Virus record (IMG/VR): IMGVR_UViG_3300036407_000017
Span: 1-26,947 of that record
Source of the DNA: a virus
Length of the DNA: 26,947 bases
Direction: 5' to 3' (one strand)
The stretch's first letter is position 1; every line of letters starts with the position of its first letter. The notes under the pieces were generated by a model, which saw nothing but the letters and a program-made list of their open reading frames with translations, did no database searches and had not been told where the DNA came from. Of the stretch, positions 187 through 8,959 are shown in pieces. The translations under genes and the position numbers were made by a program.

Positions 187-270
187 TTGGGGGCTCTCGG
201 TACTGAATGCTCAACCATTTCATTGCACCGAGAAACCGTCAATCGGCCAAGTCAGCTTTAGACGTCACCG

Positions 271-1182
271 TCAGCCGAAGGCAGCCTTGAGAGTGCGCCA
301 CGCATACGCTGCTTCCAACGGGACAACTCCGTTACCGCCTGCATGGGATCGCTCCAGCCGATAGGCCATCCCATCAGCCAGTCCGAAAAGTTGGGGTTGA
401 AGGTCCATTCGCCGTCCAAGGACCTGGTCCCAGGCCGCAAGCTCAAATGGAGCGGGCGGGAAAAGCGGTAGTTCGTCAGGTCCGCCATCTGGACGCCCAT
501 CAGCTTGGCCAGCATGACCAGCTGCGACCAGAGCCTGGCTGCCGTCGCCAGCGACACCTGGTTGCCCGACTGACCCAAGGCAATCCGGAAGCGCATCCCC
601 TTCGGGCTGAACTCGATGTCCGTGCGGTTCCCGCCGATCGAAGCGGTCGGCGTGGGCCAGTATGAAGACGCGGCGCCGTAAGTGGGTAGCGCCGACTTCA
701 GCCGCCGAAAAGAGGCCTGCTTTTGCCGTGTAGCCCATGCTTTGTAAGTCTGCGATGACTTCGGGCAATCCCAAATTGAGATGGCCTTCGACGTTCTCGC
801 AGAAGATCCATTCGACATCGGCCTCGATGGCGATACGAGCGACTTCTGGCCAGAGATGGCGAGGGTCGTCGGCGCCTCGCTTCTGTCCGGCGCTGGAGAA
901 TGGCTGGCATGGATATCCGGCAGAGAGCATATGAACCTTGCCACGCCAGCGGCTGCCGTTGAAGGTTCTAAGGTCGCTCCAGACAGGAGCTTGATCCAGG
1001 GCCTTGTCCGCCATCCGACCCACGAGAGTGGCCGCTGCACCAGCTTCTCGCTCGACAAAACAAACAGTTCGATATCCGGGCTCGGCAAGATGGAGCCCGA
1101 GTTCAAGGCCTCCGACGCCGGCGCAGAGGGAGATTCCGGCAAGATCAGCGCCGGCAGGTACTTTGAGGGAATGTAGAGCCAC
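271..1182 (-). CDS. DNA (cytosine-5) methyltransferase
   Basis: This 303-residue protein transfers a methyl group from S-adenosylmethionine to C5 of cytosine in duplex DNA. The family motifs appear in order: motif I LCAGVGGLELG (residues 19-29), motif IV GYPCQPFSSAG with the catalytic Cys92, motif VI ENV (129-131), motif VIII RRRVFILA (169-176) and a C-terminal motif X GNGVVPLEAAYA. The region between about 180 and 275 would be the target-recognition domain; it is short, as in solitary phage enzymes. No restriction endonuclease gene is nearby, so the likely role is protecting or masking phage DNA, the job done by Mom in phage Mu. The GTG start has a GGAG 9 nt upstream and overlaps the end of the Com-like gene by 38 nt. 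That GGAG lies in a hairpin (see 1176-1232), which suggests translational control. The sequence specificity cannot be read from the sequence. Confidence 0.93.
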   Translation of the reverse strand: MALHSLKVPAGADLAGISLCAGVGGLELGLHLAEPGYRTVCFVEREAGAAATLVGRMADKALDQAPVWSDLRTFNGSRWRGKVHMLSAGYPCQPFSSAGQKRGADDPRHLWPEVARIAIEADVEWIFCENVEGHLNLGLPEVIADLQSMGYTAKAGLFSAAEVGATHLRRRVFILAHADRFDRREPHGHRVQPEGDALPDCLGSVGQPGVAGDGSQALVAAGHAGQADGRPDGGPDELPLFPPAPFELAAWDQVLGRRMDLQPQLFGLADGMAYRLERSHAGGNGVVPLEAAYAWRTLKAAFG

Positions 1183-1432
1183 ACCCGTATTCTCCGATGG
1201 AAGGACGCTCTTGGCGTTCGGAGGGCGGGCTCGATGGCCTCAGATGATTGACGATGCCGCACCTGCGGCACTTGATCTCGATTTCGGTCGTGATCTCCGG
1301 CGAGGCCTTGAACAGCAAGGCGCCGCAGCCGCAACGTACCTCAACTAGGGGACCGGCAACAAGATGGCTGGCGTCATTGTCGGCCAGGGTCCCGATCGGG
1401 CGAGTGCCCGGCATTTGAACGAATTTACTCAC
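1145..1432 (-). CDS. com: Com-like zinc-finger translational regulator
   Basis: This 95-residue protein has a core VRCGCGALLFKA (residues 32-43) followed by IEIKCRRCG (51-59). It matches the layout of phage Mu Com, where a CxxC pair, the LLFKA segment and an IEIRCPRC motif form a zinc finger. Here the first pair is C34-x-C36 and the second C55-xx-C58. In Mu, Com binds the com-mom mRNA and unmasks the mom start. The gene overlaps the methyltransferase start by 38 nt, so it should be the activator of that gene's translation. The GTG start at 1432 has no clear Shine-Dalgarno, and an in-frame ATG at 1414 is an alternative. Compared with Mu Com there are about 30 extra N-terminal residues, so the shorter start deserves weight. 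The C-terminal tail after residue 65 is low complexity and encodes the hairpin. Confidence 0.85.
   Translation of the reverse strand: MSKFVQMPGTRPIGTLADNDASHLVAGPLVEVRCGCGALLFKASPEITTEIEIKCRRCGIVNHLRPSSPPSERQERPSIGEYGCGSTFPQSTCRR
1176..1232 (-). promoter_or_regulatory. Hairpin masking the methyltransferase ribosome-binding site
   Basis: On the minus strand, CTCCGA (1223-1218) is perfectly complementary to TCGGAG (1197-1192). The second arm contains the GGAG Shine-Dalgarno of the methyltransferase. An outer pair, GAGCC (1232-1228) with GGCTC (1180-1176), would also close over the GTG start codon (1182-1180). The 20-nt loop contains a further small stem, ACGC/GCGT. The structure lies inside the com reading frame. 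Mu uses the same arrangement, a translation-inhibiting stem-loop opened by Com, to silence mom. The pairing is seen directly; the regulatory role is inferred by analogy. Confidence 0.65.
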
Positions 1433-3206: not shown

Positions 3207-4118
3207 TTAGGCCCCTGTCTTGAAAATGATGCGGTCGCTTGCCGCGGCGCTGCCGACGCGGATGGTCGTGGCGTTCGATGGTGTCGAGCCAAGGCTCATT
3301 GCCGCGTAGCCGGCCGGAACGCCCGCGCCGTCATTGGCGCCCAGGCGCAGCCATTCGAGGGTCGATCCAGCCCGCAGGATACTTGCCGAGGCATCGACCA
3401 AGCCCTGCGCCCATTGCAGCGCAAAGGCGCCGGCATTGGCTCCATTCTCGACAACCAGCTCGGCAAACAGAAATCCGTAATCTAGGAAGTTGCCCGCCAC
3501 GATCGTCGAGGCTGGATAGATCAGCCCACCCCCGACCGTTTCAGCCGTCGCGCCGGGCGCGCGCAGGCGCTGTTCGGCTTGGACGCGGATGGCGCTGGCG
3601 GGGCCGGTCATGGCGTATTTGAACCCGGGCGCGGCCGGCGCCGAGAAGTAGAGCTTGAGCGTGATGGCGTAGTTGGTGTTTGCCGCCATCTGGAATTGGA
3701 GGTCGGGGTCGTTGGCCAGCACGGTGGTATTGGTCCGGCTGGTCGAAACCGCTTTGCTGGCCAGCCCGCGCGAGCCGCCGAGCGCGGCCCAGATCGAGCC
3801 CGTCCAATGGATTTGCGCGCCGCCTTCGCCGACCACGGCCGCGACCATCCCGACCGAAGGAATAACCCGGCGCCAGCGGCCATCGATGCGCAGCGCCAAA
3901 TCATTGGCGCTAAAGCCGGTCCAGGCGCCCGTCCCGGTCCCCGCAAGAATATAGACCGCGCCGTCGAGGGCGGCAGGCGGGGCGGAAAGGGAGCGGCTGA
4001 CCACGGGAATGACGCCGGTCAGCAAGTCCAGCTGCAGCAGGGCTTCGTTGTGGGTGACATGCTTCTGCGCCTGGGCGGCGTCCATCAGCGGCAGTTTAAG
4101 ACGGGGCGTGTCAACCAT
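3207..4118 (-). CDS. DUF2793-type phage tail/fibre protein
   Basis: This 303-residue protein has the N-terminal signature TPRLKLPLMDAAQAQKHVTH (residues 4-23) followed by NEALLQLDLL. That is the hallmark of the DUF2793 family found next to baseplate genes in alphaproteobacterial phages and gene transfer agents. The middle repeats a GxW/WxG pattern (AGTGTGAWTGF; IHWTGSIWAALGG), typical of this domain. The C-terminal half is a beta-rich, Ala/Gly-rich segment likely to be a receptor-binding or carbohydrate-binding module. The start overlaps the 3' end of the megatron remnant by 8 bp. Its structural partner genes upstream are deleted, so it may no longer be assembled into particles. Confidence 0.8.
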   Translation of the reverse strand: MVDTPRLKLPLMDAAQAQKHVTHNEALLQLDLLTGVIPVVSRSLSAPPAALDGAVYILAGTGTGAWTGFSANDLALRIDGRWRRVIPSVGMVAAVVGEGGAQIHWTGSIWAALGGSRGLASKAVSTSRTNTTVLANDPDLQFQMAANTNYAITLKLYFSAPAAPGFKYAMTGPASAIRVQAEQRLRAPGATAETVGGGLIYPASTIVAGNFLDYGFLFAELVVENGANAGAFALQWAQGLVDASASILRAGSTLEWLRLGANDGAGVPAGYAAMSLGSTPSNATTIRVGSAAASDRIIFKTGA

Positions 4119-6618
4119 CGCTGCGAATCCAGATCAGGGCCTCGGCGGGAATGCCGGCGCCAAAACTTGCGCTCATCTGCCGGACGCGGGCATAGAAGCT
4201 GTAAAGCGGCTGGCCGAAGTCCGCGATCTGCTGCTCGGCACTGTAGAGCAAGGCCGGGCTGGTGATGGCCACCGTGCGCAAGGGCGAGCCACCGGCGCCC
4301 GTCAGAACGTCCAGCTGATAGGCTTCGCTGGCCTCGCCCAGGGGCACTTCCACTTGCTCCCAGCTGTCGCCACCGATGCGGGTGCGGCGCACCCAGGACA
4401 AAGCCCAATCGCCTGTCTCAGCCGAGCGCCGGCCGAACAGATGGGCTGGGGAAAGCGGGCGCCGGGCCTTGCCGTAAAGCGTCTTTGAAAAGGCGTTGAA
4501 GCGGCTCGATGCGAAGTTCTCCCCGATGGGCCCGACGCGCCAGTTCTGCTCGACGCCTATCAGCGCCTCCGGCAAACCGGTCTGCTTGACCGCCGCGTTG
4601 ACCAGGACGATTCTTGCCCCGGCCGGGACGGGCGAACGCATCGCGTGTTCGGTGCCGCGCTGCCCGCGCAGGAGGTCGGTCAGCTTGTAGCTCCTGGCGC
4701 CGGTTTGGGTGGCGGTGGCGAACTGGACGAGTTCCCACTCGCCGTCCTGGTTCTCGATCAACATGGCATTGGCGCCGTTGAGCACCTGGAGCTCGTCAAC
4801 GGAGGTGAGCGAACCTTGCGCGAGCTCGAGGTAAATCTCGTTGCCCCGGTCCCAGCGGCCGGTCGGCCCGGAGAAGAGTTCGCCCGTCGTGGCGCCGATC
4901 GTCGCGGCCAACGGCAGGACGGTGTCGATGCCAAAGCCTGAAGTGGAGGGCGAGCGGGCCGCGATCATGCCCGACCGGAAGGGTGCGATGGAGGCCGCGA
5001 CGTAAGGGGCATAGTCGTTGTCGCTGTCGTTGAGCAGCGGGCCATCGATCAGCGCCACCCGGGCTAGCGAATAGATGATCGGCGTCACAACCTTGCCGGG
5101 CGAGCCCTGCCTTGCCATCGGAGCGACGGATTGCGGATCGACTTCGAAGGCCGACATGCCGCGGCTCAAATCGTCTTCAACGGCTTCAAGCCGCAGCAGG
5201 CGCCCGGTGGGCCCAAAGTCGACAACGTCGCCCGCGTCGAGCGCCAGGCGCGACGGGGGCAAGGCAAAGCGGGTGCGCTCGCGGCCCAGCCAGGTAGAAT
5301 AAAGCTCACGCTCGCAAAGTGCGGTAGCCTGCGCCTCGCCCATGATGACGGGAAGCGAGATCTCCGGGATGCGTTGCGAGCCGCCCAGCGAGCGGCGGGC
5401 TTCGGTGGACGCCGGCTGATCGTCGCGCGCCAGATCGCCGTAGCGGAGCTTAAGGGCGCGGGGCAGTTCGGTTTCCTGTCCGCGCGTCTGGCGCCAGCCA
5501 GTGCCGCCCGTTTCGTCCGCAACCAATTCATCGAGGGTGATCTGGGCGACCGAGGCGCGGCCCTGGCGGGCCTGGAACTTGATCACGCCATCGCTTTCGC
5601 TTGCGTCGAACTGGAAGGCGGGCCGCAGCGCATCGAGCATCGAGCGGGCGCTGGCCAGATTGCCGGTCGTGACGCCATCGACCACGGCCGGAATCGGCTC
5701 GATGGTGAAGCGGGTGAACTTGGCGTCCGCAAGCACGGCCGCGATCGTCTCGCTGGCTGATGCCGAGCCAAGCCGGCCGGAGAGCCAATGGCCGGTGTTC
5801 CAATTGGCGCTGTCGCCCCAATCGTTGTCGAGCGCGAAAGATGGCCAGGGCCGGGCATCCCAGCACCAGACATGCGACGCGCCAAGGTCCAGCATCGCGG
5901 CGCCGTAAACCGCCGAGACGGGATTGTTGGCCGGGTCGGTGTAGTGCCCGATCAGCGCCGCAAGGTACGCGCGCTGCATGGCGTCGTCGCGCGCCTGGTT
6001 GGAAAAGTACGGAAACGAGCCTTCCGAGCTTTTCGGATCGGGGAACAGATTGGGCTGGTTGGCGCCCTTGTCGACGGCCGGGCAGCCCATCTCGATAAAC
6101 CGCAACGGTTTGCCCTGCGGCACCCAAGCAGTGGCGGCGCCAGCTTCGATACCGGCCGGCCGGTCGAAATGCTGATTGGTCCACCAGGCGCGCAAATCCT
6201 TCTGCCGGTAAACCCAGGGCTTGCCATAAGCGCCATCGGTAATTGGCGTCCGCGCCTGCGCCTCGCGGGCAGCAGCGTCAGGATAGAACCAGTCGAAATA
6301 TTCCCCACCCTCGACGTTCCCGCTGAGATAATCGGCGTCGTAGATCGTGGTGGGTCCGGAACCGGAGAAGTCCAGATGATCGCTGCCATCGCGCCAGTCG
6401 CTTAGGGGGAAGTAGTTGTCGATGCCGACGAAGTCGATGTTGGCGTCGCTCCAGAGCGGGTCCAGGTGGAAGTAAAGGTCGCCCGACGCGTCGGCCGGCC
6501 GGTGCGAATTGAACTCGCTCCAGTCGGCCGCGTAGCTGATCTTGGTGGCGCCGCCCACGATCGTGCGGACATCGGCCGCCAGCGTCTTGAGCGCCTGGAC
6601 GAACGGGTAAAGATCGCC
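4111..6618 (-). pseudogene. Baseplate megatron protein (GTA TIM-barrel type), 5'-truncated
   Basis: The frame is open from just left of a stop at the junction to 4111, about 835 codons. The first residues after the break, GDLYPFVQALKTLAADVR, continue into KISYAADWSEFNS and DNYFPLSDWRDG. These are diagnostic of the GTA TIM-barrel-like domain of gp15-type host-specificity proteins. A phage tail domain follows around EISLPVIMGEAQATALCERE, with beta-rich C-terminal domains ending IWIRSDG. Full-length relatives exceed 1,200 residues, so the N-terminal third or more is gone. The only in-frame start near the break is a GTG at 6558, which would begin inside the TIM barrel. The frame differs from that of the portal remnant, so no fusion protein is made by simple readthrough. 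The lack of stops over 2.5 kb suggests the deletion is recent. Confidence 0.85.
6608..6618. other. Deletion junction between portal and megatron genes
   Basis: On the minus strand the segment GGCGATCTTTA can be read as the end of portal DWAIF or, one frame over, as the start of megatron GDLYPF. It therefore probably marks a short homology of up to about 10 bp at which the two genes were joined. The missing block would normally hold the rest of the portal, the head morphogenesis, scaffold/protease, capsid, tail tube and tape-measure genes, the GTA-like gp12-gp14 equivalents and the megatron N-terminus. I infer well over 10 kb from typical gene content. Confidence 0.75.
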
Positions 6619-7295
6619 CAGTCACGCATGGTGAAGGCCTTGAACATCCAGGCCCAAGCGGTGATGCGCGACAGGCCGGACCGGGTGGGGATGCCCGATT
6701 TGGCCGGCATGCGGTTGTAGATGAACTTCCCGCCCGGCAGCGGCACGCTCTGGCCGCCCTCGGTCAGCAGCAGGGGCGTCGTCAAATCGCGCCTGTCGAA
6801 GTCGAACCAGCGCGGGTCGCGCCATTCGAGGCGCTCCGGCCGCCACTGCCCCTCCGAAGCCGACCAGATGATTTCCGTGAAGCTATAACCCTTGTGGATG
6901 GCATCGAGCATGTCGAACAATTCGCTTTGCAGCTCGTCGCGTGCCAGCCAGTCGCGTACCATTTCGGCTTGCTTCTTGTGCAGCGGGTCGGACGAGGCCG
7001 CATCCACGATGATGTCGAGCTGGCTGACCGAGCGGCGCCGCGTTCCCAGGACGCCAATCAGATGCGGGTCACGCTCCTCGATGGTTTCGGCCAGTTCCAG
7101 CTGGCGCACGGGATGGCCCTGGTCCGCCTCCTTCATGATGGCGGCAAGGCGAATGGGGTTAAGACCATCGGCGGGGTAGCCGGTGTGCGGCGTCCGCACG
7201 CCTGTCAGCGTTGCACCGGCCACTTCCTCGGTCAGCACGCGTTTCTCGATCGGGCGCCCGCGCTGGTCGATCAGGCCCTTCCAGAAATCCGGCAT
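6608..7295 (-). pseudogene. Mu-like portal protein (DUF935, gp29-type), 3'-truncated
   Basis: The ATG at 7295 overlaps the terminase stop (TGATG) and has a GAGGGGAAG site upstream. About 229 residues match the portal family: an early GLNPIRLAAIMKEAD segment, HLIGVLGTRRRSVSQLD (residues 78-94), GYSFTEIIW (136-144), WRDPRWFDFD (158-167) and finally WAWMFKAFTMRDWAIF (214-229). Normal DUF935 portals are about 500 residues, with the clip and crown domains C-terminal to this point. After residue 229 the reading frame enters megatron DNA out of frame and ends at 6402 after about 70 nonsense residues. The product cannot form a portal ring. The genes that should follow (gpF-like head protein, protease/scaffold, capsid) are absent. 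Confidence 0.88.
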
Positions 7296-8959
7296 CAAAC
7301 GCTTCCCCTCAAACGCGCACCCAGGGGGCTTGCCCACCAGCCACGCGCGTCGGCGGCATCGGGGTCATCGAAGCGGTCGGCAGCAGGCGCATCACGCTGG
7401 GCCGGAACAGCCTCGTAGGCATACTCCGACCAGGTCAGGCGCGTTGCGTAATCGGCCAGTGCCAAGCAGATGGCATAGTCGCCATGGCGCTTCTTGCCAG
7501 CGGTGCCGGTGCGGATGTCGGGCACCCGCGGGACGCCGCGGATCATCTTGACCAGGCGCAGATCGACCAGGTGCTCGGCATCCCGGCCGATCGAGATCAC
7601 GTCGTCCTCGAAGTGCACCTTGAGCGGAGGCATTTCGAGCCGGTACCATTCCTCGGAAAACTTGATGGCGCGAACGAGGCCCGTCTCGTTATGCGTCTTG
7701 TCGTAGAGGCCAAACAGCCGCCCCATATCCTCCGCCACCGTCCAGCCCATGCCGGTGGCATCGAAGGCCGCGCCGATCAGCCGCTCCCGGACATGGTTCA
7801 AAACGGTCCGCGTGATCATTTTCTGCTCGTCGCCCGGCACGTTGCGGAGCTCGAAACTAAGCGCCTCGCGGCGGCGCAGCATGCCCTCAAGGGCGAGGAG
7901 CGAGCCTGTCGACAGATCCGCGACACGCCCGAAGTCGAACCCGAAACCGTAAAAGGCCGACATGTCTAGCTTGGCGAGTTCGGCTTCCAGTTCTTCCATG
8001 AAGGGCCGCAGGCGCGCCTGGCGGGCGAGTTCGGGCATGTGCAGATAGTCGGCCGGCAATTCGAGCCGCAGGCATTTTGCGGCACTGGTCATGCGCGCTT
8101 CGATCAGGGGCGAGGGCAGCCAGGTGCCGGAGCCCTGCGATGGTATGCAGAACAATTCTTCGTCGGCGCCATCGCCATAGAAGTCGATGATCTCCTGACG
8201 CCATTCGGCCTCGCCTTCAGGGGACCAGGCCAAGCCACGCACGAAACAGATGCGCTGGTAAAGTCCGTCCCGCAGCGCCTGGTCGAAGTCGATCCGGACA
8301 TGGCGGAACTTGGACCGGCCGCCCAGGATATCCTGCACCTGGACGTTGAACTCATTATCGGCACCGTTGTGCGTCGAGCAGACGACGACCTGGCCGCCCC
8401 ACATCAGGAAGGCCAAAGCCGCTTTCAAAAGCTCTTTAAGGCTGTCGACGAATGCCGCCTCGTCGATGATGACAACGCCCTGCTTGCCGCGCAGGGTGCG
8501 CGGCGCCGAGGACAGTGCAAGGATTTCAAAGCCAGACGCGAAGCGGATGCGGAAAGCGTTGATCGAGCGGTCCCCGGTGTCGTCGCTGTCGTCGAACAGG
8601 AACTCCTCGGCTTCCAGGGCGCCATGGTTGAAGGCACGAGCCCACATGCCGCAGGCGTCGATGAACTCACGCGTCATCTCCTGCGAATAGGAAATATACA
8701 TGGCGTCCATGCCGCCCGCCGCCTTCTGGCGTGCGGCCCGCAGCACGGCATAGGATGCCAGCCCCCAGGTCAGCCCGATCCGTCGCGACTTCTCGACAAA
8801 CAGGACGCGCGTCGAGACTTCCTCCAGATCGCGCAGGACGCCCGACTGATAGCCCAGCAGCGCCTTGGGAAGGCCCAGTTCGGCGATGAGCGCCGGCACG
8901 GCCTCGGTCGAGGCGCGCCGGATTTCCGCCCATTGCTCTTTGGTGAAGGGGGCGGTCAT
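7295..8959 (-). CDS. Large terminase subunit (Mu gp28-type)
   Basis: This 554-residue protein is the packaging motor ATPase/nuclease that fills proheads with DNA. It shows a Walker A-like FVEKSRRIGLTW (residues 54-65), Walker B VVIIDEAAF with D166/E167, a coupling motif CSTHNG (194-199) and an RNase H-type nuclease start FGFDFGRVADLSTG (D342, D348). The length fits the FluMu gp28 family. The ORF is intact, although its portal partner downstream is broken. It starts 29 bp from the divergent plus-strand gene at 8989; the site upstream is weak (GGATAG). In Mu-like phages it acts with the DUF3486 small subunit, encoded just upstream at 9560-10162. Confidence 0.93.
   Translation of the reverse strand: MTAPFTKEQWAEIRRASTEAVPALIAELGLPKALLGYQSGVLRDLEEVSTRVLFVEKSRRIGLTWGLASYAVLRAARQKAAGGMDAMYISYSQEMTREFIDACGMWARAFNHGALEAEEFLFDDSDDTGDRSINAFRIRFASGFEILALSSAPRTLRGKQGVVIIDEAAFVDSLKELLKAALAFLMWGGQVVVCSTHNGADNEFNVQVQDILGGRSKFRHVRIDFDQALRDGLYQRICFVRGLAWSPEGEAEWRQEIIDFYGDGADEELFCIPSQGSGTWLPSPLIEARMTSAAKCLRLELPADYLHMPELARQARLRPFMEELEAELAKLDMSAFYGFGFDFGRVADLSTGSLLALEGMLRRREALSFELRNVPGDEQKMITRTVLNHVRERLIGAAFDATGMGWTVAEDMGRLFGLYDKTHNETGLVRAIKFSEEWYRLEMPPLKVHFEDDVISIGRDAEHLVDLRLVKMIRGVPRVPDIRTGTAGKKRHGDYAICLALADYATRLTWSEYAYEAVPAQRDAPAADRFDDPDAADARGWWASPLGARLRGSV

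Follow-up and report, generated by a model that had tools for sequence, protein, structure and literature searches.

The 26,947-nucleotide viral stretch analyzed here (the window; IMG/VR record IMGVR_UViG_3300036407_000017) probably carries a Com-operated translational switch, and the enzyme it controls, a phage C5-cytosine methyltransferase, is probably itself the product of two overlapping reading frames. Comparison with relatives establishes, at the level of sequence, the com-effector module, a pair of hairpins with covariation in their stems, pairing between cognate arms, a boundary at which effectors are exchanged, and the second overlapping frame.

The com gene lies on the minus strand at 1145–1432 and begins with GTG. 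Its product, a Com-like zinc finger, matches the Pfam family Zn_ribbon_Com (PF10122, E = 1.4e-11, 44.1 bits, above the curated cutoff of 22.9) and the PHROG family phrog_6417, annotated as "translational regulator" (E = 9.6e-9). All four Cys residues are present, the first pair as CxC and the second as CxxC. The CxC first zinc knuckle (RCGCG or RCRCG) is seen in the window Com and in L004, two divergent relatives, with CxxC in most relatives. Also on the minus strand and also starting with GTG, frame A (271–1182) encodes the C5-cytosine methyltransferase (PF00145, E = 2.5e-29), and the two genes overlap by 38 nt (1145–1182), as the first-pass annotation of this DNA had stated. The Pfam match covers residues 16–181 only. 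The catalytic motifs IV, VI, and VIII are present; PCQPFS, ENV, and RRR (catalytic) are found together with a motif-X-like GNGVVP, and GYPCQPF and ENV are unchanged across 17 methyltransferase relatives. The predicted model of frame A resembles M.HaeIII/M.HhaI over about 173 residues (E = 4.5e-11), and both the Pfam and the PDB matches stop at motif VIII. Since the effector is PF00145 rather than Mom (PF25680), we class the locus as a variant predicted to work like com-mom, not as com-mom itself. Between com and the lipase-like gene, an 80-aa ORF on the plus strand (1648–1890) has no Pfam match. Upstream the IMG/VR fragment carries GTA-type tail genes, a Mu-type portal, and a GDSL-lipase-type protein; at 4111–8959 (minus strand), GTA_TIM and Rcc01698_C tail proteins sit beside the Mu-type portal and a terminase, forming a mosaic late region.

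PF10122 is rare in whole genomes, with 5 of 385 over the cutoff in one class and 3 of 369 in another, and viral contigs were therefore used for the survey. Methyltransferase relatives were collected from viral contigs and bacterial genomes, and com was located with a Com profile. The gene is found just upstream in 93 of the approximately 190 relatives, mostly in alphaproteobacterial phages and prophages (strains of Shinella and Roseibium are examples of hosts with such a prophage), and the layout with com directly upstream of the effector, usually overlapping it, recurs among them. The pairing of Com with a C5 methyltransferase is not a one-off, and the com-less half of the relatives serves as a natural control. 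In the open-access literature, which leaves most subscription papers outside, we found no description of this pair or of the overlap between frames A and B.

The 80 non-redundant junctions that contain com share a common order of elements: TTGAGGCC, a short spacer, GAGCCC, a small hairpin with a C-N2–4-GA loop, the Shine–Dalgarno sequence, and NTG-TGG. Two Com-motif hairpins are seen on the minus strand of the window. The distal one, HP1 (1228–1239), reads GGC-C-AUC-GA-GCC, and its GAGCC strand (1228–1232) has an alternative partner, GGCUC, at 1176–1180; perfect 4-bp versions of HP1 with altered pairs occur ahead of other effectors. The proximal one, HP2 (1205–1217), reads ACGC-C-AA-GA-GCGU. 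Across 39 aligned sequences 96.2% of HP2 cells are paired and all four of its pairs are changed on both sides, counts that ignore phylogeny, and sliding the partner lowers the share of the two-helix structure from 82% to 23–49%. The loop is constant while the stems vary (ACGC/GCGU, TCGC/GCGA, CCGC/GCGG, GCGG/CCGC, GCGA/TCGC, GCCG/CGGC, and CUGC/GCAG). Hairpins with a C-N2/3-GA loop and a stem of at least 4 bp occur in 56% of the 80 junctions with com, as against 1.7% of 59 com-less junctions and 3.7% of shuffles; for GAGCC the corresponding values are 94% with com and 7% without. In the alignment used, HP2 pairing reaches only 77% for subgroup A4. L134 contains extra sequence within the HP2 loop together with one frame B stop and is perhaps a decaying copy. 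An Rfam search returned nothing near the gathering score.

The SELEX-derived Com motif is CC(N)2–3GAG, in which the GA is essential (PMC6483171), and the HP2-type loop fits it. In Mu, the counterpart of HP2 is AUGC-C-UGC-GA-GCAU, right ahead of the mom Shine–Dalgarno sequence. By analogy with Mu, HP2 is the predicted Com-binding hairpin. As to whether Com binds a hairpin or a duplex, a conflict with an earlier study has been reported (PMC6483171); the relatives now supply natural covariation for this disputed site, which becomes directly testable. The likeness to Mu com-mom extends to a PF10122 Com gene placed just ahead of, and running into, a DNA-modification gene (late in Mu, presumably late here) with a GTG start, and to a stem-C-N3-GA-stem hairpin directly before GGAG. 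The differences are that the Mu effector is Mom whereas that of the window is a C5 methyltransferase, that Mu has its predicted inhibitory stem (CCCAC/GUGGG) on the downstream side of the Com hairpin whereas the predicted inhibitory arms in the window enclose the hairpin, and that Mu has one Com-motif hairpin where there are usually two here.

The predicted mask over the translation start is built from the sequences on either side of HP2. On the minus strand, an anti-Shine–Dalgarno arm, CUCCGA (1218–1223), pairs with UCGGAG (1192–1197), which holds the Shine–Dalgarno GGAG (1192–1195), and GAGCC pairs with GGCUC over the start codons; both stems are present in the MFE and in the centroid fold (−39 kcal/mol). 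These are the stems that the first-pass annotation had put forward, together with the suggestion to fold the minus-strand RNA. The fold as a whole stands out only mildly from shuffled sequence (z = −1.58, with 12 of 200 shuffles folding equally well), and single-sequence folding was dropped as proof, so that the case must rest on relatives. There conservation is seen not for the exact 6-bp stem, which belongs to this locus, but for HP1 and HP2, neither of which had been named, and for an anti-Shine–Dalgarno:Shine–Dalgarno pairing around HP2 whose letters vary.

This pairing emerges from an alignment-free test in which the 32 nt before HP2 were combined with the sequence that begins at HP2 and runs to the start, in true versus swapped combinations. 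With com, cognate arms give −17.5 kcal/mol and swapped arms −16.3 kcal/mol (permutation p < 1e-4, z = −4.1); in the com-less relatives the same test shows no difference (−14.3 versus −14.5 kcal/mol, p = 0.64). Pairing of the Shine–Dalgarno region likewise exceeds that of shuffled-upstream controls (p = 2e-5) and of com-less relatives (p = 7e-4). For start-codon pairing, the com-containing set and the shuffled-upstream controls are not distinguishable (p = 0.13), and start-codon accessibility was given up as a discriminating measure in favor of the cognate-arm test. The GAGCC:GGCUC helix in subgroup A3 has 71% of its cells paired in a MAFFT alignment, a count spoiled by one-column shifts and given no weight for or against. 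An absence of stem conservation in homologues, which the first-pass annotation had named as grounds for refutation, is not what is seen, given the double changes of HP2 and the covarying arms that flank it. Together, the MFE fold and the cognate-arm test support an inhibitory structure over the Shine–Dalgarno sequence and start, and the comparison supports control of the methyltransferase through its RNA. HP1 and the GAGCC:GGCUC stem appear mutually exclusive, which is clear from geometry but only in part borne out by forced folding: imposing HP1 and HP2 raises start accessibility only from 0.27 to 0.45, at a cost of about 7.7 kcal/mol, and leaves the Shine–Dalgarno sequence masked. Given the small gain in accessibility, the energy cost, and the masked Shine–Dalgarno sequence, an exchange of pairing based on HP1 is the weakest step of the model.

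On the precedent of Mu, we propose that Com would be produced first, from a transcript shared with the methyltransferase. Without Com, the arms flanking HP2 would pair with each other and mask the Shine–Dalgarno sequence and both start codons, those of frame A and of the overlapping frame B. Binding of Com to the C-N2–4-GA loops of HP2 (and HP1) would open the mask, and the methyltransferase would then be made late, near the time of phage DNA packaging, and would protect the phage DNA from restriction. The binding by Com, the direction of the switch (activation), the late timing, and the anti-restriction role are all modeled on Mu. The hairpins could also be real and yet mark a site of Com autoregulation, or they could belong to a translational coupling in which ribosomes completing com open the stem, with Com not required in trans for the methyltransferase in either case. 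The classic layout for coupling is indeed present in most loci, where com terminates within the stem or shortly before the start. However, com stops 730–924 nt upstream in L011, L021, and L154 and 68 nt upstream in L013, too far for ribosomes ending on com to open the stem, and yet all four retain GAGCC, and three of them (L013, L021, and L154) Com-motif hairpins as well. Coupling would also leave the conserved C-N2–4-GA loop with its covarying stems unexplained, and we consider this explanation unlikely.

The second start codon belongs to frame B, a full-length overlapping +1 ORF (258–1184, minus strand) whose GTG-TGG start lies 2 nt before that of frame A and whose N-terminal MWLYIP is conserved. 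With a GC content of 0.64, it might be supposed that frame B is untranslated and stays open merely through high GC and the constraint on frame A, the more so as much of it lies over well-conserved codons of frame A, and there the substitution pattern is dominated by frame A alone. The frame is, however, conserved in about 95% of relatives, being open in 71 of 73 with com and in 23 of 25 without, where synonymous shuffles predict 5.6 and 5.9, respectively, and a comparable overlapping frame is found in only 0 of 20, 1 of 5, 0 of 11, and 0 of 12 members of the other Com effector groups. Low-GC Paenibacillus phages have this nested frame too, under the annotation "g49 internal gene". Finally, over the 80-codon region after motif VIII, close pairs differ by 392 synonymous and 164 nonsynonymous substitutions in frame B and by 90 and 458 in frame A, so that substitutions in the presumed recognition region track frame B and not frame A. 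We therefore regard an untranslated frame B as very unlikely. By these substitution counts purifying selection acts on the conserved C-terminal domain of frame B (258–704, minus strand) but not on frame A in that region. Variation in the first codons of the frame (W-L-Y-I-P) falls at frame B third positions.

The structural models and PHROG matches point in the same direction as the substitution pattern, marking the C-terminal domain of frame B as the probable target-recognition half. The frame A model drops below a pLDDT of 50 over residues 181–235 and to around 30 after motif VIII, and that of the frame B segment has a pLDDT of about 80–89 across residues 31–90 of the segment. All 48 relatives match phrog_27243, and 47 of the 48 match phrog_1008, "DNA methyltransferase"; Foldseek and HMM searches of the domain against the PDB gave no match. 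From its position and from the piece missing in frame A, rather than from its fold, frame B apparently encodes the target-recognition half of the methyltransferase. No universal slippery sequence for a programmed frameshift between A and B was seen by eye in the junctions with com. Among the com-less relatives (L022 and L046–L111), an ATG-N-ATG junction is frequent: the frame A ATG is followed 4 nt later by a frame B ATG that stands just before TGG, which gives each frame a start of its own.

There is a precedent for such a division in M.EcoHK31I, whose smaller gene is nested, in a different frame, within the larger. Frame B differs in that it spans the whole gene, starts 2 nt before frame A, and is under predicted Com control, the two systems being likened by description. 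PMC3404938 (citing Lee 1995) assigns motifs I–VIII and X of M.EcoHK31I to the larger polypeptide and has a second polypeptide supply the missing part. By this analogy frames A and B would jointly make the enzyme, and a two-polypeptide methyltransferase like M.EcoHK31I appears to be the most economical reading of the two frames. In Paenibacillus phage Diva, gp49/gp50 likewise consist of a C5 methyltransferase and an internal ORF that is homologous to frame B and in the same relative frame; the pair differs from that of the window in that com is absent and the start of the internal ORF lies some 180 nt into the gene.

The hairpin elements themselves also overlap a coding sequence, that of com, and codon usage and reading frame there indicate that the conservation acts at the RNA level. 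The 5′ arm of HP1 is formed by the codon for the LRP-motif Arg, and this codon is AGG in 71 of 73 com genes, although AGG accounts for about 12% of the other Arg codons of com and for 7% of those of the methyltransferase. GAGCC falls in one com frame in 49 loci and in another in 19. The least probable of the alternatives is that the DNA elements mirror the C-terminal protein sequence of Com (LRP..EP..ERxER) rather than RNA structure, since, although in most loci they lie within com and code for recurring residues, protein sequence would not account for the choice of AGG, the use of two reading frames, the survival of the elements where com stops upstream, or HP2 pairs that change together.

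Beyond the C5 methyltransferases, Com loci were gathered with Mu-seeded and alphaproteobacterial Com profiles, giving 160 loci, many of them near-copies within a group. The effectors include C5 methyltransferases (49), N6_N4 methyltransferases (21), Mom (18), Dam-like proteins without a Pfam match (18), D12 methyltransferases (17), and ABC-ATPase/GNAT fusions (15). The C5 methyltransferase is thus one among at least six Com effector groups, and the description of the locus as having this enzyme "instead of Mom", while right about the effector, is too narrow. In Mu-like prophages (e.g., Hia5/Hin1523), a Com homologue ahead of an adenine methyltransferase in the mom position has been noted before; those effectors are m6A enzymes, whereas that of the window is of the C5 type, and we know of no description of a conserved Com hairpin for the Com-linked adenine methyltransferases. 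Hairpins of the type seen in the C5 loci are found upstream of N6_N4 (18 of 19), D12 (9 of 11), and Mom (5 of 6) effectors, with 6–15% in shuffles, and ahead of these non-C5 effectors they often occur as a pair, about 22 nt apart. A covariance model built solely from C5 junctions detects (E < 0.01) 38 of the 65 Com loci with other effectors and none of 65 com-less loci, a result to which com homology contributes.

Three locus pairs have com DNA that is 89–95% identical and different effectors. Over the initial 150 nt of com, L289 (a C5 locus) matches L308 (a GNAT-ATPase locus) at 95% identity; the near-identity runs through HP1 and HP2 and ends just after HP2. A boundary just past HP2 is also seen in L330/L336 (C5/N6-N4) and L312/L335 (N6-N4/Mom). 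That near-identical com genes diverge exactly at the 3′ end of the hairpin argues that effectors were exchanged there. On the Com tree, which is weakly resolved with few resolved branches, 32 effector-type changes are counted against a minimum of 5. These data support a portable unit of com, HP1, and HP2 that recombination just 3′ of HP2 would have joined to different effectors. They agree with the first-pass proposal that the control module was kept while the effector was exchanged, a reading that is supported by comparison and more general than originally stated. On balance, though with less assurance than for the switch in the window, we favor the view that com and tandem C-N2–4-GA hairpins constitute a general, self-contained on-switch that has moved between unrelated DNA-modification effectors at the 3′ edge of the hairpin, and that in the C5 branch, where the starts are 2 nt apart, a single Com event would set both halves of a split methyltransferase.

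Most work on the com-mom system has regarded it as something particular to Mu. The loci collected here suggest a family of Com switches with a recognizable RNA operator before at least six effector groups, the GNAT-ATPase among them, and provide a set of candidate protein-activated translation switches. The C5 branch would in addition be a widespread case of two proteins encoded by one stretch of DNA, frame B being the predicted one. The ABC-ATPase/GNAT fusion is a protein of about 370 aa; it lies 100–180 nt downstream of Com in L303, L306, L308, L309, L313, L317, L320, L326, L333, and L347. It is possibly a DNA modification enzyme of a new type.
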